A stretch of DNA of 64,000 bases from Deferribacteraceae bacterium V6Fe1 (GCA_022813675.1 CP063375.1:2266501-2330500), one strand, 5' to 3'. Counted from the first letter of the stretch, positions 32,339 to 47,557 are shown. The notes: generated by a model from the sequence alone, not told the origin. Program-made: numbers and translations.

Positions 32339-33072
32339 ATTTAAATGAAAGCCTCGCATTCAGATGGTTAAGCGACAAATTGGAGCCTATAGAAATAAAG
32401 GCCCACAATAAGCTGGATAATTTGCTGTGTATAGACAGGCAAAAAAACCTTGCAATCAAGAACGTCAACTCTTTTGTTAACGGTGGTCCCTTCTTAAATA
32501 TGCTATTATGGGGGGAAAAGGGGTGTGGTAAATCGTCATTAATCAAGTCATTAGGCTTAAAATTTAAAAATGACGGATTAAAAATAGTCGAATACCTTGA
32601 TGATAATATTGTAGCCATCTTCAAGCTTTTCAAAATTGTCGATAATTATCCTCAATACAAATTTATTGTTTACTTTGACGATATCTCTTTTGATGAAGAC
32701 GATATTGTATTCAGGAGATTTAAATCTGCCATAGAAGGGAGTCTTCAAGACCCTCCTGAAAATGTAATGTTTGTAGTTACTTCTAACAGACGTCACCTTA
32801 TTGCCGAAAGGTCAGCAGATACGAATGATATTTACTCAAGGGATGATATTAATGAAAAATCCTCTCTTTTTGCAAGATTCGGGCTTACAATAGGATTTTA
32901 TCCACTTAAAAAGAGTGAATATCTTGATATTGTAAGATTTTATCTAAAACAATTTGGTATTAATGAAAATGAAGAACTACTTAAAGAGGCTGAAAATTTT
33001 GCAATCGAAAGGGGTGGCAGAAGCGGCAGGATAGCTAAGCAGTTTGCTGTTTACAGGCTGATTTCGGAATGA
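32335..33072 (+). CDS. DUF815-family AAA-type ATPase
   Basis: A 245-residue P-loop ATPase: Walker [12 protein letters not shown], Walker [15 protein letters not shown], sensor-like [12 protein letters not shown], and a C-terminal arginine-rich [12 protein letters not shown]. This matches the DUF815 family of small AAA proteins, of unknown function. It overlaps hemB by four bases and so appears to be the last gene of the heme operon, although a link to heme synthesis is not established. It ends seven bases from the convergent EAL-HDOD gene. Confidence 0.85.
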
Positions 33073-33078
33073 TTTACC

Positions 33079-34323
33079 CTATAAAAACTCCGTAATCTCA
33101 TTAAGCCATGCATAACTCCTCTGTTTTATTTCCGTAAAATCTTTATAGTCAATTTTTAAATCGTTTAATATTTTCAGCATATCATCATACAGCTCAAATT
33201 CGTCATACTCTATGACTTTCAACATTCTTCCCAATGGTCCTTCGTAAAAAAGGAGTGCTTTCTCCACCTCTTCGTCAAGGGCAAGCATTTTTATGAGCTC
33301 ATCTTTTGGCCTGCTAAACAAAGCATCAACAAGGGAGAAAAGCCCAACAAGAAAGGCTGTTTCCTTTTTTTCGTCGTTGTTTTTAAAAACTTCTGTTGCC
33401 AAAAGCTCCATCCCCTTTGCCCTGACAACAGCCGACTGAAACAAAGGGGAATTAACTGCATTTTTACCTTTTTGAGCAAAACTTAGAAGCATTAACCAAC
33501 TTTGTAGCTTTTTGAGTCCGATAAGACTGATGGCATGACGTATTGACTTAATCCTTGAACGGAAAAAAAATGCAGCAGAATTGACAAATTTTAAAAAATT
33601 ATAGCTTAATATGGGGTTTGTCTGAAAAACGTCCACAATTTTTCCGACATTTTCGTCCTTATTTATCATATTGATAATTTTAATTACAGTTAGCTTTGAA
33701 GGGTCAACCGCATCAGCTTCAAGAATTGTAGGTCTTGCAAAGAAAAATCCTTGAAACAAATGAAAACCAGCATCTTTACATTTGCTATATTCACTGTAAG
33801 TCTCGACCTTTTCTGCCAAAAGTTTTGCAGGAAGTTTATTTAAAATTTTTAGTTTTAAAGACAGATTGTCGTTTTTTACATTAGGATATTCTACCTTAAT
33901 ATAATCTACTTTATCAAAAAGCTTATTGAAATTATCCAGATAGTCAGAATCAAATACAAAATCATCAAGAGCAAACTTGTATCCCATTGCTTTCAATTCG
34001 CAAATCCTACTTGAAAGATAATCATCCACAATAGTGTCCTCGAGTATTTCCAAAACAAACTTATCCTTTGGAATAATCTCAACATAATCACTTAGCAAAA
34101 AATCTCTGTTTGTGTTTAAAAAACCAAGAGAGTTATGGAGCAAGCTCTGCGTGCCAAATCGTTCAAAGATATTGACAAGAGTAGTAGCAATAGAGCCAAA
34201 GGCATCTTTTATATTTGCAAGATTGTTATATTTATCATCCCTAAAAAGCAACTCATAGCCGTGTATAGATTGATTTGCATCTACAATAGGCTGCCTTCCG
34301 ATAAATATCCTCTCATTATTCAT
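33079..34323 (-). CDS. EAL-HDOD (YuxH-type) signalling protein
   Basis: About 414 residues. The N-terminal half is a degenerate EAL domain opening RIFIGRQPIVDANQSIHGYELLFRD (ELL in place of the catalytic EAL) with KFVLEILEDTIVDDY and KFALDDFVFDSDY. The C-terminal half is an HDOD domain (NPILSYNFLKFVNSAAFFFRSRIKSIRHAISLIG). Loss of EAL catalytic residues makes cyclic-di-GMP hydrolysis unlikely; such proteins usually act as signalling adaptors. The ATG at 34321-34323 has AAGGAT upstream. Confidence 0.88.
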   Translation of the reverse strand: MNNERIFIGRQPIVDANQSIHGYELLFRDDKYNNLANIKDAFGSIATTLVNIFERFGTQSLLHNSLGFLNTNRDFLLSDYVEIIPKDKFVLEILEDTIVDDYLSSRICELKAMGYKFALDDFVFDSDYLDNFNKLFDKVDYIKVEYPNVKNDNLSLKLKILNKLPAKLLAEKVETYSEYSKCKDAGFHLFQGFFFARPTILEADAVDPSKLTVIKIINMINKDENVGKIVDVFQTNPILSYNFLKFVNSAAFFFRSRIKSIRHAISLIGLKKLQSWLMLLSFAQKGKNAVNSPLFQSAVVRAKGMELLATEVFKNNDEKKETAFLVGLFSLVDALFSRPKDELIKMLALDEEVEKALLFYEGPLGRMLKVIEYDEFELYDDMLKILNDLKIDYKDFTEIKQRSYAWLNEITEFL

Positions 34324-34452
34324 CAAATTTATCCTTGTACTAATAAATTATACAGCTGAATCGGTAAAATTAAAATAATAGTATTATATTATTTAAAATA
34401 ATACCATATTTGTAACACAAACTCAAATTAAAAAAATTTTTACGTTTATAAT

Positions 34453-34549
34453 CATATGCTCTTATTTAAATTCTAAATTCAATATATTAGAATTTTTTAA
34501 TATTTAGCATATGCCTATTATTTCGCTATGATTTTATTATTGACATATG
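34453..34549. promoter_or_regulatory. Cluster of three CATATG elements upstream of the first DUF134 gene
   Basis: CATATG(C) occurs at 34453-34458, as the perfect palindrome GCATATGC at 34507-34514, and at 34544-34549, where it overlaps the -35 box TTGACA. The same elements recur upstream of psrA2 and of the binding-protein gene, so this looks like a shared operator set. The binding protein is unknown. Confidence 0.55.
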
Positions 34550-34568
34550 ACTAAAAAATTGCTATTCA
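34540..34568 (+). promoter_or_regulatory. Promoter of the first DUF134 gene
   Basis: TTGACA (34540-34545), exact 17-base spacer, TATTCA (34563-34568). A CATATG element overlaps the -35 box and spacer. The start codon follows 28 bases after the -10. Confidence 0.6.
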
Positions 34569-34596
34569 AACGATAGTTCATTATAGGAGAGTGTTT

Positions 34597-35034
34597 ATGT
34601 CAAGACCGCCAAAAAGAAGACTTGTAAGACATCGTCCAAGATTTTTTAAATTTGGTCCTATATGCAACGAGTGCCCCGATTTAGATGCCATAGAAATGAC
34701 TATAGACCAACTTGAGGCAATGAGACTTGCTGACCTTGAATGTTTAAGCCAAGAAGAAGCTGCCGATTCGATGAAAGTATCAAGACAAACATTTGGCAGA
34801 ATAGTTGAACAGGCAAGAAAAATAGTAACCGACGCTCTAATAAACGGAAAAATAATTAAAATCGGGTGTGATGAATATATCGACTTCCATAGCAGGGAGT
34901 TAAAGTGCATTAACTGCGGTCACGAATGGGAAGACAACTCGGGCTTTATACCGATAACGTATACTGCCCGGCATGCGGTTCAAAGGATATCATCAAAAGA
35001 AAAAGATGCGGACAAGGGTGTGAATGCCCTCTAA
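34597..35034 (+). CDS. DUF134 (UPF0251) HTH protein with C-terminal zinc ribbon, probably frameshifted
   Basis: The reading frame gives about 145 residues. Residues 1-95 are a DUF134 domain (RPPKRRLVRHRPRFFKFGP, TIDQLEAMRLADLECLSQEEAADSMKVSRQTFGRIVEQAR), a sigma-like helix-turn-helix. A C-terminal zinc ribbon begins KCINCGHEWEDN, but the frame then loses its second Cys pair. In the -1 frame the sequence continues VYCPACGSKDIIKRKRCGQG and stops at 35057, exactly the missing half. A single lost base near the GGG at 34941-34943 would explain this. The ATG at 34597 has AGGAGA upstream. Probable regulator of the adjacent psr operon; promoter elements suggest autoregulation. Confidence 0.8.
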   Translation: MSRPPKRRLVRHRPRFFKFGPICNECPDLDAIEMTIDQLEAMRLADLECLSQEEAADSMKVSRQTFGRIVEQARKIVTDALINGKIIKIGCDEYIDFHSRELKCINCGHEWEDNSGFIPITYTARHAVQRISSKEKDADKGVNAL

Positions 35035-35157
35035 AAGTACAAACACCTTTTATTTAATATCATCACCTAATCATTAGTTCACAATTGTACTCAAAATTTT
35101 AATCTTTTGCTCATAAAAATCAAATAATACTCGAACACTCTTTTTTTGGGAAAATTT

Positions 35158-35168
35158 TGAGCATTTGC
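35158..35168. promoter_or_regulatory. Near-match CATATGC element upstream of psrA1
   Basis: TGAGCATTTGC differs by one base from the TGAGCATATGC found upstream of psrA2. It lies about 35 bases before the predicted -35 of psrA1, which fits an activator or upstream operator position. Confidence 0.4.
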
Positions 35169-35201
35169 CATAAAGCCCTATGAAACATACAAAAAAAAGT
35201 A

Positions 35202-35230
35202 TTGACAGTTATTGTCATAAGTTTTATTTC
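35202..35230 (+). promoter_or_regulatory. Candidate promoter of psrABC-1
   Basis: TTGACA (35202-35207), exact 17-base spacer, TATTTC (35225-35230). A short inverted repeat TGACA-N5-TGTCA (35203-35217) overlaps the -35 and spacer and may be an operator. Confidence 0.5.
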
Positions 35231-35277
35231 AAACCATAGCTAATTAAGTTTTTATCAATAAAAACAGGGAGGCAACA

Positions 35278-37605
35278 ATGTCTTTATCAAAAGCCAAGCT
35301 AAGTAGGAGAAAGTTTCTTACTTTAAGTGGTGCTGCTTTGGCTACAGCAACGGCTGCTTCAAGTTTATCTTCGCTTAAAGCGGTTGCTTCAAGTGGCACA
35401 CAATCAGAATCAACAAACTCTAAAGGTAGAAAGTTTGTCTACAGCTCATGTGCTATCTGCGTTAACAAGTGCGGACTTGTCGCAGAAGTCAACAATGGTG
35501 TAATCAGAAAGCTTAACCCAAACCCAAACTTCTTCAAAAGTAGGGCTATGCTTTGCGCCAGAGGAAATGCAGGGGCAAAAGTTCCATATGACCCTGACAG
35601 ATTAAAAAAACCTTTAATAAGGGTTGGTGAAAGAGGTGAAGGCAAGTTTAAAGAGGTAAGCTGGGAAGAAGCTTACAATTACATTGCTGAAAACGTATTA
35701 AAAGTAATCAAAAAGTATGAAAATCGTTCTGCTATTGGTTTTGCATCAACAGAAGGCTTCCAAGAAGAATTTTTTATTCATCTTGCGAATATCGTCGGCT
35801 CAACCAATACAGTAAGACACCCTACCCTTTGTCTTGCTTCAAACATCCAAGGTTATTCTTCCGTTTACGGGACATTTCCGGATGCTGATATTTTAAATGC
35901 TGACTTTGTAGTTATGGCTGGCTCTAACAGAGCAGAGGCTATAATCACTCCTGATACTATCGACATGGCTAAAAACCATAAAAAACAGACTTTGGTATGT
36001 ATAGATCCGAGAGCTACAAAGACATCTGCTATAGCTGACAAATGGTATCCTATAAAACCTGGCACTGATTTGGCATTAGTACTCACAATGATTAACATAA
36101 TTATTTCTGAAAATCTCTATGACAAGGAATTTGTAGAAAAGTATACTCATGGCTTTCCAGAGTTGGCTGAACACGTCAAGCAATACACTGCCGAATGGGC
36201 AGAAAAAGAGTGTGAAATTCCTGCAAGTGAAATTTACTGGCTTGCAAGGGAATTTGCAAAAAATGCTCCTCAATCTGTTTGGTATCCTGGACGTAGAAGT
36301 TCTTTCTATGTAAATGACGTATACTACAGAAGGGCTTGCGCAATATTGAATGCAATTGTTGGCGCTTTTGACAGAAAAGGCGGTTTGGTTCCAAAAAGGG
36401 GAATAAAATTAAAAAAACATGATTTTGAATTTCCACTTTATGACTTCACTAAAAAGAGAATAGACTCAGGCACGCTTCCATTCTTAAACGAAAAATTGCC
36501 TGAAGAATTTAAAACATCAGCAGGCCTTCCGACTGACAGCTGTGCTTATATTTCAGAAAAAGACGGTAGCTGGGTAATTTACAGAGATGCAGCTCTTGCC
36601 GGAAATCCTTATCCACTTAAAGGTCTATTTGTTTATAAGCAAAATCCTGTTGAATCTGTACCTAACAGAAAGAAAACATTAGAATTTTTAAAGCAGATGG
36701 ATTTTATCTGCACAATAGATGTCACAATGAGTGATACCGCATTCTACTCAGACGTAATTTTACCTGAGTCTACATATCTTGAAAGATGGGACCCTGCTGA
36801 AAGTCTTGGCGGTATAGTACCAATAGTTGTAACAAGACAGCCGGTAATCGATCCTCTTTTTGACACTAAATCTATGCATCAGATAACAGTAGATTTGGCT
36901 AAAAAATTCTACGATATGCCTGAATTTTGGGAAGATTCCACAGAAGATGATAGGGAATATCTAAAAAAATACATCAAAGCAATGGATGTGCCGATGGAGC
37001 ACCTGATTGAAGAATCTCTGTCAGGTTACCCTGGTGCCTTTAAAATGTTAATGGAAAAAGGTGTATTTTATCTTAACGACAAACCTGTTTATGGCAAGCT
37101 ATTAGAAGATGGTGCCAGACTTAAAACAAGGACAGGTAAGATTGAGCTCTACAATGTTAAATATGCAGAAAGAGGGCTTGACCCATTGCCTGTTTACAGA
37201 AAGCCATCCCAAGGGAAACCTGGCCAATTTAGATTCGTAGTTGGACGTCATGGCCAGTTTACTCATGCATCTACTCAAAACAACATATATCTTCTTGAGG
37301 CATATGGAGATTATGAAAATGCTCTTTGGATAAACTCAAAAGTTGCTTTAGAAAGAGGGCTTAGAGCAGGTGACAAAGTAAAAGTTATCAGCAAGGCAGG
37401 GGAACAGATAGTAAAGGTAATGCCTACGGAATTTATTAGACCTGACATAGTCTTCTATGTACACGGTTTTGGCAGACTTTCTAAAGGTTTGAGCTTGGTA
37501 TACAACAAAGGAGCTTCTGAGGCTGCCATATTGTATGACTATGCAGAAACAATTTCAGGTAATGCCTGCTTACATGAAACATTTGTAGATGTTCAAAAAG
37601 TTTAA
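35278..37605 (+). CDS. Molybdopterin oxidoreductase catalytic subunit, polysulfide/thiosulfate reductase type (copy 1)
   Basis: A 775-residue periplasmic Mo/W enzyme, close to PsrA/PhsA length (about 760). It carries a twin-arginine signal peptide (SRRKFL, residues 9-14, then a hydrophobic stretch to about 37). One [4Fe-4S] cluster is bound by Cys58, Cys61, Cys65 and Cys93. Cys185 in VRHPTLCLASN is the expected metal ligand, and pterin-binding regions follow to the C-terminus. It reduces a sulfur compound with electrons from PsrB/PsrC; polysulfide, thiosulfate, tetrathionate or related oxyanions are all possible, since this family cannot be resolved by eye. AGGGAGG precedes the ATG. First of three genes. 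Confidence 0.88.
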   Translation: MSLSKAKLSRRKFLTLSGAALATATAASSLSSLKAVASSGTQSESTNSKGRKFVYSSCAICVNKCGLVAEVNNGVIRKLNPNPNFFKSRAMLCARGNAGAKVPYDPDRLKKPLIRVGERGEGKFKEVSWEEAYNYIAENVLKVIKKYENRSAIGFASTEGFQEEFFIHLANIVGSTNTVRHPTLCLASNIQGYSSVYGTFPDADILNADFVVMAGSNRAEAIITPDTIDMAKNHKKQTLVCIDPRATKTSAIADKWYPIKPGTDLALVLTMINIIISENLYDKEFVEKYTHGFPELAEHVKQYTAEWAEKECEIPASEIYWLAREFAKNAPQSVWYPGRRSSFYVNDVYYRRACAILNAIVGAFDRKGGLVPKRGIKLKKHDFEFPLYDFTKKRIDSGTLPFLNEKLPEEFKTSAGLPTDSCAYISEKDGSWVIYRDAALAGNPYPLKGLFVYKQNPVESVPNRKKTLEFLKQMDFICTIDVTMSDTAFYSDVILPESTYLERWDPAESLGGIVPIVVTRQPVIDPLFDTKSMHQITVDLAKKFYDMPEFWEDSTEDDREYLKKYIKAMDVPMEHLIEESLSGYPGAFKMLMEKGVFYLNDKPVYGKLLEDGARLKTRTGKIELYNVKYAERGLDPLPVYRKPSQGKPGQFRFVVGRHGQFTHASTQNNIYLLEAYGDYENALWINSKVALERGLRAGDKVKVISKAGEQIVKVMPTEFIRPDIVFYVHGFGRLSKGLSLVYNKGASEAAILYDYAETISGNACLHETFVDVQKV

Positions 37606-37617
37606 TAGAGGTGCAAA

Positions 37618-38172
37618 ATGAGTAAGAAAAAATATGCAATCGTCCTTGACGATTCAAAGTGTATAGACTGCAAGGCTTGTACCATGGCCTGCAAAATGGA
37701 AAATCACGTCCCTACCGGACTATACAACTATAGGATTTGGGTGGCTGAAAAACCTATAAGAGGACAATTTCCTAATGTAAAGAGAAGTTTTCAGCCTTCA
37801 CAATGTCAACAGTGTGAAAACCCTCCTTGTGTTCATGTTTGTCCTACAAGGGCTTCTTATCAAACTGAAGACGGTGTGGTACTTGTCGACCATGACAAGT
37901 GTATCCTCTGTAAATACTGTATGACAGCATGTCCATACGATGCAAGGTATGTAAATGAAGAGATTAAAGCAATTGATAAGTGTACTTTCTGTTATCATAG
38001 ATTGCCTGAAGGAAGACAACCTGCTTGTGTGGAAACTTGTCCACCTAAAGTAAGGGTTTTTGGAGATTTAAATGATCCTAACAGTGAAGTGTCAAAACTC
38101 TTAGTTGAACACGAAACATTTAACTTAAAGCCTGAAAAAGGCACAAAGCCTAAGCTTTACTACATAAGATAG
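37618..38172 (+). CDS. Four-cluster ferredoxin-like electron transfer subunit (PsrB-like, copy 1)
   Basis: A 184-residue iron-sulfur protein with four cysteine groups: CIDCKACTMAC, CQQCENPPCVHVC, CILCKYCMTAC and CTFC...CVETC, sixteen cysteines in all, enough for four [4Fe-4S] clusters. It matches the PsrB/DmsB/NrfC family that passes electrons from the quinol-oxidising membrane subunit to the catalytic subunit. It has no signal peptide of its own, so it is probably exported bound to PsrA via the Tat system. Spacing is 12 bases after psrA1 and 10 before psrC1. Confidence 0.92.
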   Translation: MSKKKYAIVLDDSKCIDCKACTMACKMENHVPTGLYNYRIWVAEKPIRGQFPNVKRSFQPSQCQQCENPPCVHVCPTRASYQTEDGVVLVDHDKCILCKYCMTACPYDARYVNEEIKAIDKCTFCYHRLPEGRQPACVETCPPKVRVFGDLNDPNSEVSKLLVEHETFNLKPEKGTKPKLYYIR

Positions 38173-38182
38173 GGAGGATAAT

Positions 38183-39367
38183 ATGACTACCCGTACAGAA
38201 ACTGTTGGAATTAATATTTTTGAAGGTAACAAGGAAATTTCCAATATATGGCTTGGCTTATTTTTAGTCTTGTCAGTATTTGGAATTTATGGCGTTGGGA
38301 ATGTCCTTCTTCATGGTCAGGAAGAATCCTTTGGTGTTACGAGAACTGTGCCATGGGGTATACTAATATCTACTTACGTCTTTTTCGTTGTATCAAGTAC
38401 AGGGCTTTGCCTTATTTCTTCAATGGGGCACGTATTTGGTATTGAAAAATATGAAGTCATAGGAAAGAGAGCAATCATTCTTGCAATTTTTACACTTATT
38501 TGCGGATTTGGCGTAATCGGAATGGAGCTTGGTCATCCATTTAGAATGATGATTTATAATGTAATTTCGCCAAACTTCCACTCTGCTATCTGGTGGATGG
38601 GTACTCTTTACGGTGTCTACCTTGTGTTCATAGGGATAGAGTTTTTCTTTCTTATGAAACACAACCATAAAGGGGCATTCTATGCCGGACTTGGAGGTTT
38701 TTTGGCAGGTATTTCAGCACACTCTAACCTTGGGGCGGTATTTGGTCTTCTTGAAGCAAGGCCATTCTGGCACGGACCATATCTTCCTATTTACTTTATC
38801 TTGTCTGCACTAATTTCAGGCTGCGCTTTAATAATCATTATCTTAAACGTTGCTCATAAAGGACCTGCTAATCTGCCTATCAGAGAGAAGGAAGCACTCT
38901 TAGGGATATCAAAAATATTCGGATTATTAATCGGTATCCTTATATTCTTTGACGTGTGGAAAATGATTAGTTCAATTTATGGTGCACCACCTGAAAAATA
39001 TGAAACAGTAATGCAGCTATTGACCGGCCAGTTATCTACAAATTTCTGGTTGTTTGAAACAGTATTCGGACTTCTCATACCTTTTGGTATTATCCTTCTC
39101 ACCAAAGGGAACAATATCAAAGCTTCCCTTGTAGCTGCCGTGTCAGCTGTAATCGGGATTTTCTTCATGAGATATGACCTTGTAATAGCCGGTCAGCTTT
39201 ATCCAATGAGAGCTGCTACACCCGGAGCGGGGGTTCAGGGTGCAACAGCAAATGGTTTTGTCACTTATGTTCCGACATTTACTGAAATCGCCATAGTAAT
39301 CGGAGCTATATCTTTCTGTTGTTTCCTATATCTTGCAGCAGAAAAATTCTTAAATCTCAACGAGTAA
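38183..39367 (+). CDS. NrfD/PsrC-type quinol-oxidising membrane subunit (copy 1)
   Basis: A 394-residue integral membrane protein with about nine to ten hydrophobic helices, of the NrfD/PsrC family. Conserved-looking segments are RTVPWGILISTYVFFVVSSTGLC, GMELGHPFRMMIYNVISPNFHSAIWWMG, and SNLGAVFGLLEARPFWHGPY. It is longer than the roughly 250-320 residues of the shortest PsrC proteins. It anchors the complex and takes electrons from menaquinol. A terminator hairpin follows immediately. Confidence 0.9.
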   Translation: MTTRTETVGINIFEGNKEISNIWLGLFLVLSVFGIYGVGNVLLHGQEESFGVTRTVPWGILISTYVFFVVSSTGLCLISSMGHVFGIEKYEVIGKRAIILAIFTLICGFGVIGMELGHPFRMMIYNVISPNFHSAIWWMGTLYGVYLVFIGIEFFFLMKHNHKGAFYAGLGGFLAGISAHSNLGAVFGLLEARPFWHGPYLPIYFILSALISGCALIIIILNVAHKGPANLPIREKEALLGISKIFGLLIGILIFFDVWKMISSIYGAPPEKYETVMQLLTGQLSTNFWLFETVFGLLIPFGIILLTKGNNIKASLVAAVSAVIGIFFMRYDLVIAGQLYPMRAATPGAGVQGATANGFVTYVPTFTEIAIVIGAISFCCFLYLAAEKFLNLNE

Positions 39368-39375
39368 TTTAATAG

Positions 39376-39412
39376 GGGAGGCAGCTAAATCAGCTGCTTC
39401 CCTCTTTTTCTG
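39376..39412 (+). terminator. Terminator between the convergent psr operons
   Basis: An 11-bp stem with one G-T pair (39376-39386 with 39392-39402), loop AAATC, followed on the plus strand by a T-rich tract. It ends psrABC-1 and overlaps the last codons of the opposing DUF134 gene. In the minus direction there is no good T-run. Confidence 0.8.
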
Positions 39413-39719
39413 TTTTATTTTCTTCTTGCACTATTTCAACATTTCCGCCTTCAATAACAAGTTTTTTGCCTTCCACAATAAATTCCGAAAGCTTTCTTCT
39501 TGCCTTTTCAACAACTCTTGAAAAAGTAGGTCTTGAAATATTCATTAACCTTGCTGCATCTTCATGGCTGAACCCTTCAAAATCAGCCAATCTGATGGCT
39601 TCATATTCATCTAAGGTCAAACCAATCTTCTTTAACCTGGCTGAAGGAATTCCGCTCGGTTTAAACTCCGATTGAGTCGGCGTTGACCTTACCACTCTTA
39701 ATTTATCAGTCCTAGCCAT
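39390..39719 (-). CDS. DUF134 (UPF0251) HTH protein, copy 2
   Basis: A 109-residue protein with the DUF134 helix-turn-helix: VRSTPTQSEFKPSGIPSARLKKIGLTLDEYEAIRLADFEGFSHEDAARLMNISRPTFSRVVEKARRK. Unlike the 34.6-kb paralogue it has no zinc ribbon and ends in a charged tail. It is the last gene of the psrABC-2 operon, 11 bases after psrC2, with an AGGAGT site. Family members are DNA-binding by fold, with unknown targets. The pairing of a DUF134 gene with each psr copy suggests operon-specific control. Confidence 0.85.
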   Translation of the reverse strand: MARTDKLRVVRSTPTQSEFKPSGIPSARLKKIGLTLDEYEAIRLADFEGFSHEDAARLMNISRPTFSRVVEKARRKLSEFIVEGKKLVIEGGNVEIVQEENKTEKEGSS

Positions 39720-39730
39720 GAAAACTCCTT

Positions 39731-40933
39731 TTAATGATGTTCATCTGTCTCCAAATTCAGAAACTTTTCAGCCATAAAGTAAAGAAACAAGAAAAGTCCC
39801 CAACCAAGTGCAAAAATCATCCATTCGCCGGCTGAAGGAGAATACTGGACAAGTCCGTTAACGGCCTCAACACCTGAGCCTTCAAGAGCCTTTCTCATTG
39901 GTGGCAACTGTCCAGCGACAACAAAGTCATACCTTGTAAAAAACAGACCTATCATAAAAATAATGCCTGCTACACCAAGTGCTTTAGTATTTTTTGCCTT
40001 AGTAAATACAATAATTAAGAATGGTATAATTACTGCAAGTCCAAGCTCACCAATCCAGAAATTTTTGCTCAATGGCCCTTTTATAAGTGCCATTGCTGAA
40101 AGGTAAGCATCTCCTGGCTGAGTGTATATAGAAGATAAAATCTTCCAAAGGTATAAAAATGCCATCAATGCAATCCCCATTCCCATAATTTTACCAAGCG
40201 CATTCATAGTTGAGTTAAGCTTTTCAGGAATATTCCATCCGTAAATGATGTTGTGAATTACCATTAAAAGTGCAGCACCTGCCGTGATGCCTGAGATTAC
40301 AAGAAAAGTTGAAAAATAAATCCCATGGTAGAATGGCCTTGCGTTAAGTGAACCAAAAACATATCCAAGGTTGCTTGTCGCAAATACACCAACCAAAAGA
40401 GCAAAAAAGCCAACTACTTTTGCTGTCTCATGATCTTTAGCTGTCTGGTTTGGCTTGAACACGAGATAAAGCTCAATTGCAAGAATTACAAGCTCTATAC
40501 CATAAAATACTCCCATCCAGACGATAGGTGCTGAAAGATTAGGGCTCAATATCATATAAATCATAAGCCTTATAGGGTGACCAATTTCCATTCCAATCTG
40601 AGTAAAACCTGCAAGAAGAATCACAAACGCCATGACAACAATTCTTTTACTTACTTTTGAATATTTCTCAAATCCGAATGCATGTCCAAGTCCGCCTATA
40701 AATGCCAAACCTGTAGATGTAATAACAAAATATGCATAAGTAGAAATTAATAGTCCCCAAGGTACTTCTCTTGTAACTCCATAAACTGCTTCATGACCTT
40801 TAAATAACACCTGCAAAGTTGCATAACCGCCAATTGCAAGCAAAATAAGTCCCAAAATTATAAAAGGGATAGGTGCTTTACTGGGATTTATCTGTATTAA
40901 GCTGCTACCTGTTTTTTCTACATGAGTTGCCAT
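39731..40933 (-). CDS. NrfD/PsrC-type quinol-oxidising membrane subunit (copy 2)
   Basis: A 400-residue paralogue of the copy-1 protein, with the same segments (REVPWGLLISTYAYFVITSTGLA, GMEIGHPIRLMIYMILSPNLSAPIVWMG, SNLGYVFGSLNARPFYHGIY, RYDFVVAGQLPPMRKA). About nine to ten transmembrane helices. It differs from copy 1 mainly in the soluble loops and N-terminus. Menaquinol oxidation and anchoring of the PsrAB-2 dimer are the expected roles. Ten bases downstream of psrB2. Confidence 0.9.
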   Translation of the reverse strand: MATHVEKTGSSLIQINPSKAPIPFIILGLILLAIGGYATLQVLFKGHEAVYGVTREVPWGLLISTYAYFVITSTGLAFIGGLGHAFGFEKYSKVSKRIVVMAFVILLAGFTQIGMEIGHPIRLMIYMILSPNLSAPIVWMGVFYGIELVILAIELYLVFKPNQTAKDHETAKVVGFFALLVGVFATSNLGYVFGSLNARPFYHGIYFSTFLVISGITAGAALLMVIHNIIYGWNIPEKLNSTMNALGKIMGMGIALMAFLYLWKILSSIYTQPGDAYLSAMALIKGPLSKNFWIGELGLAVIIPFLIIVFTKAKNTKALGVAGIIFMIGLFFTRYDFVVAGQLPPMRKALEGSGVEAVNGLVQYSPSAGEWMIFALGWGLFLFLYFMAEKFLNLETDEHH

Positions 40934-40943
40934 CTTTTCCTCC

Positions 40944-41501
40944 TTATTTAATTATATAATAGAGTCTTGGGTTGGTATTTCTATCTTCTTTAAGACGGTA
41001 ATACCTGTTTGTATCTAACAACTTGCTCACCTGACTATTTGGGTCATTTAAGTCCCCAAACACCCTAACCTTTGTAGGACAAGTTTCCACACATGCAGGC
41101 TCCCTGCCCTCAGCAAGTCTGTGATAACACATTGTACACTTATCAATTGCTTTATGGTGCTCATGAACAAACCTTGCGTCATATGGGCAAGCTGTCATAC
41201 ATGCCTTACATAAAATACATTTATCATAGTCAACCAACACTACACCTTCTGGAGTCTTATAAGTGGCATGAGTAGGACAAACACTCTCACAAGGTGTATT
41301 TTGGCAATGCTGACACTGAGAAGGCTCAAAATCTTGATGTAAATCAGGAAATTTTCCTTGTAATTCAAGGGCTGTAACCCATATCCTATAAGCACCATCC
41401 TCGTGAGGTACTTCATTCTCTACTCTACAAGCAACAGTACATGCCTTACAGTTCAAACATTTTTTTGTATCTAAAACAATGGCATATCTTTTCTCATTCA
41501 T
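40944..41501 (-). CDS. Four-cluster ferredoxin-like electron transfer subunit (PsrB-like, copy 2)
   Basis: A 185-residue paralogue of the copy-1 subunit with the same sixteen cysteines in four groups (CLNCKACTVAC, CQHCQNTPCESVC, CILCKACMTAC, CTMC...CVETC). No signal peptide, so probably co-exported with PsrA-2. Both copies end with nearly the same VRVFGDLNDPNS tail, followed by a variable basic C-terminus. Confidence 0.92.
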   Translation of the reverse strand: MNEKRYAIVLDTKKCLNCKACTVACRVENEVPHEDGAYRIWVTALELQGKFPDLHQDFEPSQCQHCQNTPCESVCPTHATYKTPEGVVLVDYDKCILCKACMTACPYDARFVHEHHKAIDKCTMCYHRLAEGREPACVETCPTKVRVFGDLNDPNSQVSKLLDTNRYYRLKEDRNTNPRLYYIIK

Positions 41502-41511
41502 TTTCTACTCC

Positions 41512-43836
41512 TTACGCCTTTTTTATTTCAACAAAGGTTTCGTGCATTGCAGCATTTCCTGAAATTGGCTCAATCTTATCTTCCAAAATTGCAGCTTGAG
41601 ATGCACCTTTATTATAGACAAGGGATAATCCTTTTGAAATTCTGCCAAAACCATGAGCGTAAAATACACAGTCAGGTCTTATCTTTTCTGTTACATAAGC
41701 CTTAACTTTCTGCTCACCAACCTTACTTTTGACAACAACATAGTCACCATTTTTGATACCGAGTCTTAGTGCCTCTTTAGTATTAATCCACAAGCTATTC
41801 TCTTTTTGTATCTGATGGAGATAGCCATTATTTTGAGTGCCGGCATGGGTATTCCAAGCATGTCTTCCAAGTATAAATCTATATTTTCCAGGCTCAGGTT
41901 GTGATGGTCTTCTGTATACAGGAAGCGGATCTAACCCCTTTTCCTCATACTTCAAATTATAAAGCTCAATTTTACCTGATTTTGTTTTAAATCTGGTATT
42001 TTCTTTTCTCATTTTACCGTATTGTGGTTTATCGGACAGATAAAAAACACCCTCTTTTTTAATCTGCTCAAATGCGCCGGGGTATTTTGACAACTGATGC
42101 TTAATAAACTCTTCCATTGGCTGGTTTAATATCTCTTCAACCAATGTTGCTTTGAAATCTTCTACATCAGCAGGATCAGCATCATCCCAAAGTGTCGGAA
42201 TTTTTAACATTTCATTTACAATGCCTGCAGCAATTTCTTGCATTGATTTTGTATTAAAAAGCGGGTCGATTACCGGCTGTCTAAATGTAACAATCGGCCA
42301 AATTCCTGATAAAGAATGGCAAGGGTCCCATCTTTCAAGGTATGTTGACTCAGGTAAAACAAGGTCAGAATACCATGCAGTTTCAGACATCTGTATATCG
42401 ATTGTGCAGATAAAGTCCATCTGCTCCATCATTTTTAAAGTCTTAGCTCTGTTTGGAGCTGACTCAACAGGGTTTTGTTTATATGTAATCATCCCTTTTA
42501 TAGGATATACATTCCCTTTTAAAGCAGCTTCTCTAAATGTTATCCAGCTACCATCTTTTTCCCCAAGGAATGTACAGGAGTCTGTCGGAAGCCCAGCAGC
42601 AGTCCTTTCATCTTTTGGAAGGATGCTGTCCAATGAGCCTATTTTTGCATCCAATCTACCCTCTGCCATTTCAAAGAAAGGAAATAAAGGGTCATGTTTT
42701 GCCAAAGGGATAGAACTTTTCGGAACAATACCTCCAGGAACATCCCAACTGCCAACTATTGCAGTTAATATCCCACAAGCTCTTCTCATATATGTATCGT
42801 TTACATACCAAGATGTTCTTCTGCCTGGGTAAACAAGACTTCTTGGGGCATATTTGGCAAATTGATGAGCTGTCCACCTAATTTCACTTGCTGGAATCTC
42901 ACACTCTTTTTCTGCCCATTCAGGTGTATATGGTTTGATGTGCTCTTTGAGTTTATCAAACCCGTAAGTAAACTTATCAACAAATTCCTTATCATAAAGC
43001 CCTTCTTCAACAATAACATTTGTTATTGCCAAGATAAAAGCCAAATCGGTGCCGGGCTTTATTGGATACCATTTATCTGCTTTTGTGGCTGTAAAAGTAA
43101 ATCTCGGATCAACATAAACAATTTGCTGCCCTTTTGGTCTGTTTTTCTGAAAGTCAATTGTATCAGGAGTAACAATTGATTCTGCTCTGTTTGCACCGAG
43201 CATAATTACAAATTCGGCTTGAGACATGTCAGCATCTGGCAATGTTCCAAAAACAGATGACCATCCCTGTATAACTGAAGCAAGACAAAGCGTAGGGTGC
43301 CTTACGGTATTGGTTGAACCGTAAGATTGAACCAAGAAATGAAAAAACTCTTCTTGAAACCCTTCCGTTGAATAAAATACAACTGATGACCTATTTTCAT
43401 ATTTTCTTTTGATTTCATCAAGATTTTTTGCAACTATTTTAAATGCCTCATCCCATGAAATCTCTTTAAACTGCCCTTCCCCCCTTTTTCCTACTCTTAA
43501 AAGAGGAGCTTTTAGCCTGTCAGGATTGTATGGCTCTTCGGCACCGGCATTCCCTCTGGCACAAAGCATTGACCTGCTCTTAAAAAACTTATGATTAGGA
43601 TTAAGTTTTTTGATTTTGCCATTTACTACTTCAGCTATGAGTCCACATTTATTGACACACATAGCGCAAGAAGATGGAACAAATTTGCGACCTAAACTCT
43701 TTGACTTACCTTCAGCATGCTCATTTGCAACGGCTTTGATTGTGCCAAGTCCGTTTGCTACTGATGCAGCTGCTAAAGTAACACCGGAAGCTGCTAAAAA
43801 CTTCCTTCTGCTTAGCTTTAAATTTGAAAAACTCAT
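41512..43836 (-). CDS. Molybdopterin oxidoreductase catalytic subunit, polysulfide/thiosulfate reductase type (copy 2)
   Basis: A 774-residue paralogue of the 35.3-kb enzyme, collinear over its whole length. Twin-arginine signal LSRRKFLAASG at residues 8-18. Cluster ligands are Cys57, Cys60, Cys64 and Cys92, and the putative Mo/W ligand is Cys184 in VRHPTLCLAS. Differences from copy 1 concentrate in the middle substrate-funnel region (for example GIVPKSSIPLAKHDPLFPFF against GLVPKRGIKLKKHDFEFPLY), so the two may prefer different sulfur compounds. GGGAGG precedes the ATG. Its promoter overlaps a GCATATGC element. Confidence 0.88.
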   Translation of the reverse strand: MSFSNLKLSRRKFLAASGVTLAAASVANGLGTIKAVANEHAEGKSKSLGRKFVPSSCAMCVNKCGLIAEVVNGKIKKLNPNHKFFKSRSMLCARGNAGAEEPYNPDRLKAPLLRVGKRGEGQFKEISWDEAFKIVAKNLDEIKRKYENRSSVVFYSTEGFQEEFFHFLVQSYGSTNTVRHPTLCLASVIQGWSSVFGTLPDADMSQAEFVIMLGANRAESIVTPDTIDFQKNRPKGQQIVYVDPRFTFTATKADKWYPIKPGTDLAFILAITNVIVEEGLYDKEFVDKFTYGFDKLKEHIKPYTPEWAEKECEIPASEIRWTAHQFAKYAPRSLVYPGRRTSWYVNDTYMRRACGILTAIVGSWDVPGGIVPKSSIPLAKHDPLFPFFEMAEGRLDAKIGSLDSILPKDERTAAGLPTDSCTFLGEKDGSWITFREAALKGNVYPIKGMITYKQNPVESAPNRAKTLKMMEQMDFICTIDIQMSETAWYSDLVLPESTYLERWDPCHSLSGIWPIVTFRQPVIDPLFNTKSMQEIAAGIVNEMLKIPTLWDDADPADVEDFKATLVEEILNQPMEEFIKHQLSKYPGAFEQIKKEGVFYLSDKPQYGKMRKENTRFKTKSGKIELYNLKYEEKGLDPLPVYRRPSQPEPGKYRFILGRHAWNTHAGTQNNGYLHQIQKENSLWINTKEALRLGIKNGDYVVVKSKVGEQKVKAYVTEKIRPDCVFYAHGFGRISKGLSLVYNKGASQAAILEDKIEPISGNAAMHETFVEIKKA

Positions 43837-43922
43837 AAAAAAAGCCTCCCTATGTTTTATTAGCTTATGCTACAAAAAATCTATCTAATATTCTATTATT
43901 TATATATTCCAAAATTGCATAC

Positions 43923-43950
43923 AATATACACTTTTTTTGAGCATATGCAA
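43923..43950 (-). promoter_or_regulatory. psrA2 promoter overlapping a GCATATGC element
   Basis: Minus strand TTGCAT (43945-43950), 16-base spacer, TATATT (43923-43928). The palindrome GCATATGC (43941-43948) overlaps the -35 box. The layout TTGCATATGCT-N11-TATATTGT is almost the same as upstream of the neighbouring binding-protein gene. Confidence 0.55.
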
Positions 43951-43951
43951 G

Positions 43952-44887
43952 CTAAAATCCCGCATAAGTAACAAATCCTCTTAACTTACCATCAAGATAC
44001 TTTAAGTCCCCCTTAAACTCTGGAGAATAATGAACATCAAACCCTTTTTTCTCTAACAAAGCCCTTGCTTCATCACTTAGAATAAACCTGATAAAGTCAG
44101 ACACATCCCGAGCATTGCCACTACCCTCTTTCACTGCCAATACAAAACTGATACAATCCCCGTAAAATCTTTTCAGGCTTCCGTCATGCTGAGGCAAATC
44201 GACATATGTCTTTCTATATTTGTCCCTAAAACAATCATCCGCCAAGCTCGCCATATTGGGCAACTCTATGTAGTTTAAGCCATTTTCTATTGCATAAGAT
44301 TTATATGTGATAAAGTAATCCACTTCGCCTTTCTTCACTGAATCTACTAACTGCTCAAACTTAGCAAACTTGACTGACCTTTTATACAAAGTGTCATACA
44401 GGCTCGACTGCGAATAATTGTAGGCTGACAGTTTTAACGCCAGCAATGGTCTAACATTGCATATTCTACTAAAGTCATTGACTAACCCAAACAAAACATC
44501 TTTTTTTCTTAAATAATATGGCCAATTCTCCCGATTTATTAACGTTGAAAACTTACTTTTATCAGCATAAGCCAATACCATCTGTCCTGCCGCAAAAGAT
44601 ATCATATAACTATAACTCTCAGCACTTTTTGTTGACATATGCTCTTTATTTCTCATTTCTGCCAACAAATATACTTCGGCGTCGCTACTTTGATTACCTT
44701 TTACATCATGCTTAACACTGCAATCTTCAGATAAAATTTCTATATCTCCATCTGGATATTTGTTGGCAAGCTCAGAAATTGCATTCATAAGCACATGTGG
44801 AACATAGATTTTCACTACAGCAAAACCATTTAGTGTACCAGCAAACACCATAAGTACAGTTAAAGAAATTACAAATCTTGTTCTCAT
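43952..44887 (-). CDS. Periplasmic molybdate/tungstate-type (WtpA/ModA-like) binding protein, orphan
   Basis: About 311 residues from the ATG at 44885-44887, which has GGAGGT upstream; a longer frame to 44929 lacks such a site. It begins with a classical signal peptide (MRTRFVISLTVLMVFAGTLN). The body is a type-2 periplasmic binding protein: VYLLAEMRNKEHM, MVLAYADKSKF, NWPYYLRKKDVLFGLV, VDYFITYKSYAIENGLNYIELP, FIRFILSDEARALLEKKGFD. The penultimate motif closely resembles the WtpA/ModA oxyanion-binding group, so molybdate or tungstate is the probable ligand. No permease or ATPase is adjacent. It lies just upstream of psrA2 in the same direction and shares its promoter type. Confidence 0.7.
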   Translation of the reverse strand: MRTRFVISLTVLMVFAGTLNGFAVVKIYVPHVLMNAISELANKYPDGDIEILSEDCSVKHDVKGNQSSDAEVYLLAEMRNKEHMSTKSAESYSYMISFAAGQMVLAYADKSKFSTLINRENWPYYLRKKDVLFGLVNDFSRICNVRPLLALKLSAYNYSQSSLYDTLYKRSVKFAKFEQLVDSVKKGEVDYFITYKSYAIENGLNYIELPNMASLADDCFRDKYRKTYVDLPQHDGSLKRFYGDCISFVLAVKEGSGNARDVSDFIRFILSDEARALLEKKGFDVHYSPEFKGDLKYLDGKLRGFVTYAGF

Positions 44888-44953
44888 GACATACCTCCAA
44901 ACTCTCAAATCAGGTGCTTGACCAAGCAAAAAAGTTGCATATAATTTTTATAT

Positions 44954-44959
44954 CATATG
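44954..44959. promoter_or_regulatory. CATATG element in the leader of the binding-protein gene
   Basis: CATATGC lies downstream of the predicted -10 and about 67 bases before the ATG, the second of three such elements in this gap. It could be a repressor site within the transcribed leader. Confidence 0.4.
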
Positions 44960-44976
44960 CCCTTTATGCACGACAC

Positions 44977-45003
44977 AATATACATAATTATAAGCATATG
45001 CAA
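44977..45003 (-). promoter_or_regulatory. Promoter of the binding-protein gene overlapping a GCATATGC element
   Basis: Minus strand TTGCAT (44998-45003), 15-base spacer, TATATT (44977-44982), with palindrome GCATATGC (44994-45001) over the -35. It is the partner of the near-identical psrA2 promoter. Confidence 0.55.
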
Positions 45004-45503
45004 GTATTTTTTTTTGACGTATGTTTAGATTAACAATCATTTATTTTTAGTCTATTTGCCCATTATTTAAAAATTATAATATATTAATATGTTAGAATGC
45101 ATATTAAAACAATTGGGTTTTGATTATTTCATAAAAAAAGTTTTAGATTAACATGAGATTAAATTGACATATGCTCATTAATTTTAATATAAACAGAGCC
45201 TGAAATTTTTATATATCAAGCAAATAAATAACACGCGTTATGTAAAATATAAGTTTGTCTTTCTATATTGGCATTTCTATGGGAATTTATATAAAATCTG
45301 CCTATTTTGTGCCGAAATGTATATCTTTACATCAAACAGCCATAATCCATTTTATAGGATGCAATTATTAATTTCACTTTAATTATACTTTTACGCGATT
45401 TTTGATCGGCTTAATGCTTTGACAATACGGCAATTATTATTACATAAAATAAATATTATAAGAATTAATGAAAGGCATTATGAATGATTTATTTTTACTA
45501 AAA
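45004..45503. other. Non-coding AT-rich gap of about 500 bases
   Basis: No open frame with a credible ribosome binding site on either strand. It contains a further CATATGC element at 45168-45173 and a good plus-strand promoter, TTGACA (45164-45169), 18-base spacer, TATAAA (45188-45193), pointing into the gap with no gene ahead. A small RNA is possible. No clear plus-strand terminator was found. Confidence 0.5.
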
Positions 45504-45533
45504 CTGCTGAGACGCAAATATACGTCTCAGCAG
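45497..45533 (-). terminator. Terminator of the MerR/chalcone-isomerase-like unit
   Basis: A perfect 11-bp stem (45504-45514 with 45523-45533) and an 8-base loop, followed on the minus strand by TTTTAGT. It lies 12 bases after the stop codon of the 45.5-kb gene. Confidence 0.85.
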
Positions 45534-45545
45534 GTCAAAATTGAA

Positions 45546-46088
45546 TTAATTACCCAACATCCCTTCTTTCAAACCATTATCCGCAGGCTTATCGCCAAAG
45601 TACACCTTCAATACGGCTTCTGCCAGCATCTTATCATTAAAAACGCCTATATTTTTACCGTTATATAGCACCGTTAAAGCATCACCTATAATTACCAAAT
45701 CAAGCTCGTCACTGCTAACCACATCAAAATTAAAAAGCTCAATAAAAGCTCTAAACCTGTCAATATCTTTTATCCCATTATCTTCAAAACCTTCAACAAA
45801 AGCCTCTCTCATCTTTTCAGCACCCACTTTTTTATACAAAAAATGCATCTTAATAGCCTTGGAATCCATACTCATAACTGACTGAACATCTTTTGCTCTG
45901 TTTTCAAGATATAGAGCCCCAACATAAACCTTAACAAAAAACTTTTTCCTCAAACCTGTACCATTTAACACCAGGTCTTTTCCGTTAAAACTATAACTAT
46001 CAGGGATATTGACACCCTCAACAGTTAAAGAAAAACCTGACATTGGCAAAATAGCCAACACAAACAGAAATACTAATAATCTTTTCAT
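45546..46088 (-). CDS. Secreted chalcone-isomerase-like family protein
   Basis: A 180-residue protein with a signal peptide (MKRLLVFLFVLAILPMSGFS). The remainder matches the bacterial chalcone isomerase-like family: VEGVNIPDSY, LVLNGTGLRKKFFVKVYVGALYLEN, AIKMHFLYKKVGAEKMREAFVEGFEDN, YNGKNIGVFNDKMLAEAVLKVYFGDKPAD. Bacterial members lack proof of isomerase activity and may bind fatty acids or other hydrophobic ligands in the periplasm. It is two bases downstream of the MerR gene, so coexpressed with it, and is closed by a strong terminator. Confidence 0.85.
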   Translation of the reverse strand: MKRLLVFLFVLAILPMSGFSLTVEGVNIPDSYSFNGKDLVLNGTGLRKKFFVKVYVGALYLENRAKDVQSVMSMDSKAIKMHFLYKKVGAEKMREAFVEGFEDNGIKDIDRFRAFIELFNFDVVSSDELDLVIIGDALTVLYNGKNIGVFNDKMLAEAVLKVYFGDKPADNGLKEGMLGN

Positions 46089-46090
46089 AA

Positions 46091-46492
46091 CTAGCCCCCA
46101 AATTTTAATTTTGTTACCTCTATTACTTTTGCTTTATACTCAAGTATATCATTTCTTAATGACGCTAGCTTGGCTATTTTGGCATCAATCTTAGAAATAT
46201 GAGCATCCAAAATCTCTACGAGTTTTGGCATAATATTATCAGGTGTCTGATGCACCTTATAAATATCTGCCAATTCCTGCATCTCTTTTAAACTAATTCC
46301 CAACTCTTTTAACTTAAGAATAAATTTCAATCTTTTAATATCATCCTTATCATACACTCTTATTCCGCCATCAAGTCTCTTAGGGTGGGTCATAAGACCA
46401 ATCTCTTCATAATACCTTATAGTCCTGGTTGTCACCCCAAGCATGGCAGCTACTTCACCAATCTGAAAATAGTCATTCCCTTCGATTTTCAT
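46091..46492 (-). CDS. MerR-family regulator (LiuR-like)
   Basis: A 133-residue protein with the MerR winged helix at the N-terminus (YFQIGEVAAMLGVTTRTIRYYEEIGLM, RVYDKDDIKRLKFILKLKELGISLKEMQEL) and a C-terminal coiled coil. It lacks the metal-binding cysteines of CueR/MerR types. Short cysteine-free MerR proteins next to acyl-CoA dehydrogenase/crotonase operons include LiuR, a regulator of branched-chain and fatty acid degradation, so acyl-CoA-related sensing is the best guess. ACGTTAA-containing sites occur upstream of both this gene and the divergent acyl-CoA operon. Confidence 0.82.
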   Translation of the reverse strand: MKIEGNDYFQIGEVAAMLGVTTRTIRYYEEIGLMTHPKRLDGGIRVYDKDDIKRLKFILKLKELGISLKEMQELADIYKVHQTPDNIMPKLVEILDAHISKIDAKIAKLASLRNDILEYKAKVIEVTKLKFGG

Positions 46493-46519
46493 AATCAGAA
46501 CACCTTTTTTTACTTTACC

Positions 46520-46529
46520 TTAACGTTAA
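46520..46529. promoter_or_regulatory. TTAACGTTAA palindrome, candidate MerR operator
   Basis: A perfect 10-bp palindrome, 15 bases downstream of the -10 of the MerR gene promoter and 27 bases before its ATG. It shares ACGTTAA with the site at 46715-46724. Autoregulation is inferred. Confidence 0.5.
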
Positions 46530-46544
46530 TTACATCCATTCAAT

Positions 46545-46572
46545 TTTATATAGTATTTTTTCTCTTTGTCAA
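46545..46572 (-). promoter_or_regulatory. Promoter of the MerR gene
   Basis: Minus strand TTGACA (46567-46572), 16-base spacer, TATAAA (46545-46550). Confidence 0.6.
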
Positions 46573-46703
46573 GAAAATTAACCAATATTTTTACAAGTTA
46601 CTCCACCTTCACAACCAATTATAAACTATAAATATTAAAGTGTTAAATAAATACCTTTGGTTACAGTGAATTTTTATTCAATTACTTCGATATACTGTTA
46701 TAT

Positions 46704-46737
46704 TATACTTGACATTTACGTTAAAAAGATTTATCTC
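46704..46737 (+). promoter_or_regulatory. Promoter/operator region of the acyl-CoA operon
   Basis: TATACT (46704-46709) could be a -10 with a weak -35, placing the start near 46716; alternatively TTGACA (46709-46714), 17 bases, TATCTC (46732-46737). In either case TTTACGTTAA (46715-46724) overlaps the start or the spacer, as expected of a MerR-type operator. Confidence 0.4.
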
Positions 46738-46771
46738 AATTTATGTGATAATATTTCATAAGGGGGAAAAT

Positions 46772-47557
46772 ATGCATTACGACTTTCTTAAACTTGAAAC
46801 AGATAAAAATATTTTGACTTTGACAATTTCAAGGCCTAATGCCCTTAATGCACTTAATGGCAAAGTCCTTGATGAACTTGAATGTGCACTATACGAAGCA
46901 AGCATAAACAAAGAAATCAAAGTGATAATTGTCACAGGTGATGGCGAGAAGGCCTTTGTGGCTGGTGCAGATATAAAAGAGATGTTAAATCTATCGGTTC
47001 AAGAAGCTGTCAATTTTTCTCGCAAAGGGCACGACATATTAAAATTAATAAGGAAAATGTCACAACCTGTAATCGCAGCTGTTAACGGATACGCACTTGG
47101 AGGAGGCTTTGAAATGGCACTTGCATGTGATATTATTTACGCAAGCCAAAATGCAAAATTTGGTTTTCCTGAAGTAACTCTTGGAATTATCCCTGGTTTC
47201 GGAGGCACACAAAACCTTTCAAGAATCACTGGAGAAAAAATTGCTAGCGAACTTATTTTTACGGGTAATATGATTACAGCCGAAAAAGCCAAACAGCTTA
47301 ATATAATTAATGAGGTATTCAGTTCAAAAGATGAGCTTTTGGAAAATGCCATTAAGACTGCTGAAAAAATCGCTTCCAACTCATCCATAGCGATATCATC
47401 GGCCAAAGATGCAATATTAAATGGGATAAATATGCCTCTTGAAGATTCATATCGATATGAAAGCACATTATTCGGAAATCTATTTGCCACAGAAGATCAA
47501 AAAGAAGGGATGACAGCCTTTACGGAAAAAAGAAAAGCAAACTTTAAAGGATTATAG
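46772..47557 (+). CDS. Enoyl-CoA hydratase/isomerase (crotonase family)
   Basis: About 261 residues, standard crotonase length. The oxyanion-hole region is AFVAGADIKEM and ALGGGFEMALACD, and both catalytic glutamates are present (in ALGGGFE and FPEVTLGI). It hydrates trans-2-enoyl-CoA, here most likely short-chain (crotonyl-CoA). I start it at the ATG at 46772, behind AAGGGGG; the frame extends upstream to 46709 but has no ribosome binding site there. First gene of a seven-gene rightward operon with 9-12-base gaps. Confidence 0.92.
   Translation: MHYDFLKLETDKNILTLTISRPNALNALNGKVLDELECALYEASINKEIKVIIVTGDGEKAFVAGADIKEMLNLSVQEAVNFSRKGHDILKLIRKMSQPVIAAVNGYALGGGFEMALACDIIYASQNAKFGFPEVTLGIIPGFGGTQNLSRITGEKIASELIFTGNMITAEKAKQLNIINEVFSSKDELLENAIKTAEKIASNSSIAISSAKDAILNGINMPLEDSYRYESTLFGNLFATEDQKEGMTAFTEKRKANFKGL

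Follow-up and report, generated by a model that had tools for sequence, protein, structure and literature searches.

Copies of the palindrome GCATATGC and of shorter CATATG(C) elements flank two psr operons and a Mo/W-type binding-protein gene in Deferribacteraceae bacterium V6Fe1, which raises the question of what these boxes are and which protein reads them. The preliminary description took them for the box of an unrecognised regulon that controls sulfur-compound respiration together with molybdate/tungstate uptake, and named the DUF134 proteins as candidate binders. We examined the whole 64,000-nt stretch (the window), the complete genome (2,358,333 bp; 2.36 Mb) and DUF134 loci of other bacteria. 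The comparisons indicate that DUF134 very probably binds DNA at the GCATATGC boxes. The block is built of two convergent units, DUF134a-psrA1B1C1 on the plus strand and binding protein-psrA2B2C2-DUF134b on the minus strand, with the following genes.

34597..35034, plus strand: DUF134a; helix SRQTFGR; Pfam DUF134, 63.9 bits (cut-off 27)
35278..37605, plus strand: psrA1, molybdopterin oxidoreductase (PhsA/PsrA-like); Pfam and NCBIfam
37618..38172, plus strand: psrB1, 4Fe-4S protein; Pfam
38183..39367, plus strand: psrC1, NrfD-type membrane subunit; Pfam
39390..39719, minus strand: DUF134b, final gene of the second psr operon; helix SRPTFSR; Pfam DUF134, 84.1 bits (cut-off 27)
39731..40933, minus strand: psrC2; open reading frame matching psrC of relatives
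40944..41501, minus strand: psrB2; open reading frame matching psrB of relatives
41512..43836, minus strand: psrA2; nearest NCBIfam family PhsA, below cut-off
43952..44929 (probable start 44887), minus strand: binding-protein gene, SBP_bac_11 (PF13531); nearest named family tungstate WtpA, far below cut-off

The closest NCBIfam family of the psrA proteins is the thiosulfate reductase PhsA, with scores below the cut-off. The DUF134a protein ends in a Cys-rich zinc ribbon. In V6Fe1 its gene has lost 1 bp near 34955 (CCGG to CCG in the alignment with sister species G002), and the frame stops early at 35034; in the frame of relatives, whose genes are intact, it would reach 35057. With this deletion the conserved zinc-ribbon tail is no longer in frame, and the helix-turn-helix (HTH) is unaffected; the deletion may be a mutation or a sequencing error. 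V6Fe1 has a third, divergent DUF134 gene (C1:1628241-1628501, helix SQSTFQR) between accD-like and hemE-like genes, and no box was found in its upstream region. An Rfam search of 33000-47000 at E up to 1 returned no riboswitch, of the Moco class or any other.

The palindrome starts at five positions in the window (1374, 34507, 43941, 44994 and 62540; exact match), as compared to 0.92 +/- 0.97 expected from 100 dinucleotide shuffles, none of which reached five. This agrees with the earlier estimate of about one copy or less per 64 kb, and the copies at 1374 and 62540 are the two that had been reported outside the block. The block palindromes had been placed at 34507-34514, 43941-43948 and 44994-45001, with CATATG(C) elements at 34453, 34544, 44954 and 45168 and the variant GCATTTGC at 35161-35168; all these coordinates are correct and all these copies are intergenic, unlike an extra CATATGC at 44636 within the binding-protein gene. 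To score the boxes we used model R1, a sequence-only model of 22 positions trained on 36 boxes from other genomes, V6Fe1 being excluded. The boxes, listed without strand, are as follows: three for DUF134a, one each for psrA1 and psrA2, and two near and one distal for the binding-protein gene.

34445..34466: distal box of the DUF134a promoter, CATATGC core at 34453; R1 12.7 bits; equivalents lie 55-56 bp 5' of the next box in relatives
34500..34521: box GCATATGC at 34507-34514, DUF134a promoter; R1 15.9 bits, the genome's best among the candidates scored; conserved in L060-L066
34536..34557: box overlapping the DUF134a -35 (TTGACATATG); R1 8.3 bits; retained in L060 and L061
35154..35175: box GCATTTGC at 35161-35168, psrA1 promoter; R1 12.8 bits; 37 bp 5' of TTGACA, position conserved in relatives
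43934..43955: box GCATATGC at 43941-43948, psrA2 promoter, in the -35 region on the minus strand; exact match; same place in L060, L063, L065 and L093
44946..44967: box CATATGC at 44954, binding-protein promoter; R1 11.6 bits
44987..45008: box GCATATGC at 44994-45001, binding-protein promoter; R1 14.5 bits; retained in L060 and L093
45160..45181: distal box, CATATGC at 45168; R1 11.5 bits; retained in L060

Every good R1 match in the window fell inside the block, and nothing elsewhere rose above noise. Genome-wide, with 150 of 1,958 first-look candidates fully scored, the top five matches and most of the top places lay in C1:2,300,946-2,311,680, which is the psr block. The 34 genomic copies of GCATATGC are about the number given by the scaled shuffle mean of the window, so that there is no overall over-representation. 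By inspection of open reading frames, 29 of them are in reading frames and five are intergenic, and three of these five are in the psr/DUF134 block; the palindrome is thus less frequent in unrelated intergenic regions than here, and the equal frequency that had been named beforehand as refuting the proposal was not observed. The intergenic match at C1:1684939 was rejected as a further DUF134 site on account of its flanks, and those at C1:660475 and C1:493263 for want of a plausible target gene. The sequence TTTAGCATATGTTTTAT at C1:716571, about 150 bp 5' of a NiFe-hydrogenase small-subunit gene, is a weak additional candidate site. A genome-wide scan with the degenerate pattern RGCAWATGCY was too loose to be informative. 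The boxes of the psr block are genuine and non-random, and the predicted DUF134 regulon of V6Fe1 is essentially local, comprising almost only this block.

The arrangement of DUF134a next to psr is retained in several families of the Deferribacterales, and the box is present upstream of DUF134a, psrA1, psrA2 and the binding-protein gene in families other than that of V6Fe1. When all 8-mers were counted in 24 upstream regions of DUF134a, psr and binding-protein genes from these other families, GCATATGC ranked first (10 of 24 regions vs. 0.18 expected), and GCAAATGC was likewise enriched. In DUF134a promoters across the order, neighbouring boxes are 55-56 bp from each other; in psrA1 promoters this spacing is about 55-58 bp. 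In both, the proximal box is mostly 27-37 bp 5' of TTGACA. Fourteen DUF134a-type loci gave 64 match rows at E up to 0.5; the rows list both strands and hence represent fewer distinct sites, many of which also trained the model. One DUF134a locus with psr (L069) yielded no box. Conservation upstream of orthologous psr operons, which the preliminary description had made a test of its proposal, was thus found in other families and was missing where the neighbouring DUF134a is missing: six psr loci of genera g2, g6 and g13 without adjacent DUF134a (29.7 kb) had zero model matches even at E = 10. In genomes where DUF134 is unlinked to psr, the box still adjoins DUF134 or its Nitro_FeMo-Co partner. 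In one genus with DUF134a (G014 and G027), strong model sites lie near multiheme-cytochrome-like genes and a Nitro_FeMo-Co gene (L244, L246, L247, L248 and L252), hinting at a larger predicted DUF134a regulon there.

A collection covering 84,980 species was then searched for DUF134 genes by protein patterns alone, and the organisms recovered include Chlorobiota, Spirochaetes, Elusimicrobia, Planctomycetes, Acidobacteria, Neomarinimicrobiota and Thermodesulfobacteriota. As the search was seeded by the SRQTF-type alignment A2, the set favours this type of helix. Among 38 upstream regions that were parsed, GCATATGC was by far the most enriched 8-mer (29 of 38 vs. 0.24 expected), and across phyla the box extends to RTTATTRGCATATGCYAATAAY / TTATTRGCATATGCYAATAA. 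With an improved start-site method, the palindrome was within 150 bp of 44 of 76 DUF134 genes vs. 21 of 367 other genes at the same loci, many of the 21 sharing the DUF134 intergenic region. Plasmid records, among them those of Klebsiella, Citrobacter, Morganella, Proteus, Clostridia and Negativicutes, showed the CATATG box upstream of nine of eleven DUF134 genes and a CAAATG form upstream of the remaining two. Enterobacterial plasmids, conjugative and others (L254, L255, L261 and L262), carry a DUF134-NifX gene pair with two tandem boxes upstream. A search of phage records found no DUF134 relatives. About one third of the SRQTF-type genes examined had no clear box in 300 bp of upstream sequence (GC-rich Spirochaetes, Myxococcota and a second Chlorobi copy), and in some Chlorobi the box precedes another nearby gene and not DUF134. 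Most genes for SRPTFSR proteins, the DUF134b type, had upstream regions without a convincing box.

The recognition helix of DUF134 occurs in several variants (SRQTFGN, SRQTFGR, ARTTVQ, SRGTxQR and SRPTFSR), and the box changes with it. Where residue 7 of the helix is Asn, the outer base 5 of the half-site is A in 60 of 60 half-sites; where it is Arg, 38 of 46 half-sites have C or T there (Fisher 3e-21, with no correction for ancestry). On a protein tree built with residue 7 masked, whose backbone support is low, parsimony gave six residue changes and seven changes of box class following them. Residue 3 tracks base 3 of the half-site: Q or G goes with C, and T, A or P tend to go with T (p = 2e-9, uncorrected). 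In an AlphaFold2 model of a DUF134 homologue (pLDDT 88), residues 3 and 7 belong to the opening turns of the recognition helix. The HTH of the model fits onto sigma region 4 and onto a DeoR-operator complex to within 0.7-0.9 A across 40-50 residues. No other result, in our view, argues as strongly as the covariation of helix and box that DUF134 itself is the reader.

Because the palindrome precedes DUF134 genes in many phyla and changes with the recognition helix, DUF134 is very probably the reader, and the proposal of DUF134 as binder gains support from psr-unlinked DUF134 genes that carry the box in many phyla and on plasmids as well as from the covariation. We hold with considerable confidence that the boxes are DUF134 operators, that DUF134 is an autoregulatory HTH regulator, and that DUF134a was recruited to the psr operons and the Mo/W-type binding-protein gene. 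A DUF134 dimer would recognise both halves of a palindrome of about 22 bp centred on CATATG, with residues of the recognition helix setting the bases that flank this core. The sequences themselves show that the box is conserved, that it is spread across phyla, that it occurs together with DUF134a and that it covaries with the helix; physical binding, dimerisation, the sign of regulation and the ligand are what we infer from such comparisons. The proposal of a regulon of psr and Mo/W uptake is supported and reaches beyond this locus; in V6Fe1 the predicted regulon is nearly confined to the block, and the link to Mo/W is circumstantial.

We considered whether the boxes might have another origin or another reader. 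That they reflect chance, composition, restriction or methylation, or promoter sequence without a dedicated regulator could be argued from the lack of genome-wide over-representation and from CATATG doubling as a restriction-enzyme site, but their location, their conservation and their co-occurrence with DUF134a make this extremely improbable. A different regulator, for example a CRP/FNR-type or a Mo-responsive protein with the DUF134 genes only among its targets, appears very unlikely. The TTGACATATG/TTGAG..CAA edges do superficially resemble CRP/FNR half-sites, and redox genes are often found near DUF134 loci. The box accompanies DUF134 through many phyla and plasmids despite differing neighbours, however, and no other regulator family recurs in scans of those neighbours; the psr loci that lack both DUF134a and the box, and the covariation with the DUF134 helix, also speak against such a protein. 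It is very unlikely, too, that DUF134b rather than DUF134a is the main binder in the block, even though DUF134b is intact and ends the second psr operon while DUF134a is frameshifted in V6Fe1. The few boxes associated with its SRPTFSR helix read AACATATGTT, whereas psr-unlinked SRQTF-type genes carry exactly the box of the block, and the frameshift spares the HTH of DUF134a.

The sign of regulation is best approached from the promoters. Outside the Deferribacterales, the box centre is either 34-41 bp or 18-19 bp 3' of TTGACA, which would place the box over the -10/start region or over the spacer within the DUF134 promoter. This is the usual layout of an autorepressor, and we propose that the ancestral role of the box was autoregulation, most likely by repression. 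In the Deferribacterales, the paralogue DUF134a (SRQTFGR) would also have taken over the neighbouring psrABC operons and, in the genus of V6Fe1, the Mo/W-type binding-protein gene. Here the boxes are 27-37 bp 5' of the -35, often paired, or on the -35 itself, which we read as activation of psr by DUF134a, possibly with repression of its own gene, although repression is also possible. Several boxes had been described as overlapping a -35; this is borne out at 34540 (DUF134a) and for TTGCATATGC on the minus strand before psrA2 and the binding-protein gene, but not for TTGACATATGC at 45164, which reads on the plus strand while the downstream genes are on the minus strand and so is not their -35. 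A variant of the main reading, whose probability overlaps with it, makes DUF134a purely a repressor, at psr as well, relieved by substrate or cofactor. The overlap of the box with core promoter elements beyond the order and of several window boxes with the -35 favours this variant, and at psrA2, where the box is close to the -35, repression is as plausible as activation. The main boxes of psrA1 and DUF134a, 27-37 bp 5' of TTGACA with conserved spacing, would be unusual for a simple repressor, and we give pure repression a substantial chance that falls somewhat short of even. A second conserved element, TGTATATTGTATRCAAT, lies 3' of the box in psrA2 promoters across families (43915-43930, minus strand, in the window), and the binding-protein promoter carries a shorter form of it; it could be an extended -10 or the site of another regulator.

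The C-terminal zinc-ribbon or Cys-rich tail is probably the sensor of a signal related to metals or sulfur. In DUF134 proteins of the Spirochaete type, about 222-227 aa long, the C-terminus is a Nitro_FeMo-Co-like domain (L115, L133, L148, L153, L157, L162, L166, L167 and L178; confirmed by Pfam in L166 and L133), an arrangement that suggests an integral sensor of metal clusters. Nitro_FeMo-Co proteins account for 17 of 47 downstream genes in DUF134 operons, where NUBPL-type ATPases and ferredoxins are also frequent. Divergent genes on a shared box region include those for aldehyde ferredoxin oxidoreductase, MoeA, a WtpA-type binding protein and cytochrome bd. From these partners and the divergent Mo/W genes, our best guess is that the signal is a Mo/W-sulfur species or sulfide. 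More tentatively, and as a possibility that we rate as somewhat less likely than not, DUF134 proteins may be phylum-spanning one-component regulators of metal-sulfur cofactor biology (Mo/W enzymes, Nitro_FeMo-Co proteins and NUBPL-type iron-sulfur carriers) with a two-residue code (residues 3 and 7) and a tail or fused domain sensing Mo/W-sulfur species or sulfide, which in the Deferribacterales would switch polysulfide/thiosulfate respiration.

Both DUF134 proteins of the block match the Pfam family DUF134/UPF0251 (PF02001; PRK04217 'hypothetical protein' in NCBIfam) above the cut-off, with an HTH like that of sigma-70 region 4. Pfam and NCBIfam assign the family neither a function nor an operator, and searches of the open-licence literature by family name and by box sequence yielded no description of either. 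The analysis offers a testable function, an operator and a two-position specificity code for a widespread family listed as unknown. It also offers a candidate regulator of sulfur-compound respiration for a phylum in which the literature search found no described one, and it ties this respiration to Mo/W and Nitro_FeMo-Co-type genes. Because DUF134-NifX pairs are present on conjugative plasmids of Klebsiella and Citrobacter, the regulator-operator pair should be accessible to reporters in ordinary laboratory strains of E. coli.

Several known systems invite comparison. CRP/FNR-type sites (TTGAT-N4-ATCAA) are likewise short palindromes near the -35, but the DUF134 box has a fixed CATATG core and GC flanks and covaries with DUF134, not with a CRP-type protein. 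The ModE regulon is similar in that molybdoenzyme and Mo uptake genes are under its control. Its operator consensus is ATCGCTATATA-N6-TATATAACGAT (PMC2700814), which the box consensus ATTATNRGCATATGCYNATAAT does not resemble, and the protein family is also different; the boxes were therefore rejected as ModE operators. The predicted fold of the DUF134 HTH is like that of sigma-70 region 4 and DeoR-SorC proteins. Identity as a sigma factor (ECF or sigma-70) was rejected, as the region-4 matches are weak, region 2 is absent and the proteins have 109-162 aa; DUF134 also lacks the DeoR effector domain and has a C-terminal zinc ribbon or Nitro_FeMo-Co domain. The target of sigma region 4 is the -35 hexamer, whereas the putative DUF134 operator is a 22-bp palindrome. 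Autoregulation by an HTH protein through a palindromic operator is of an ordinary kind; the assignment of such a system to DUF134 and the breadth of that assignment appear to be new.
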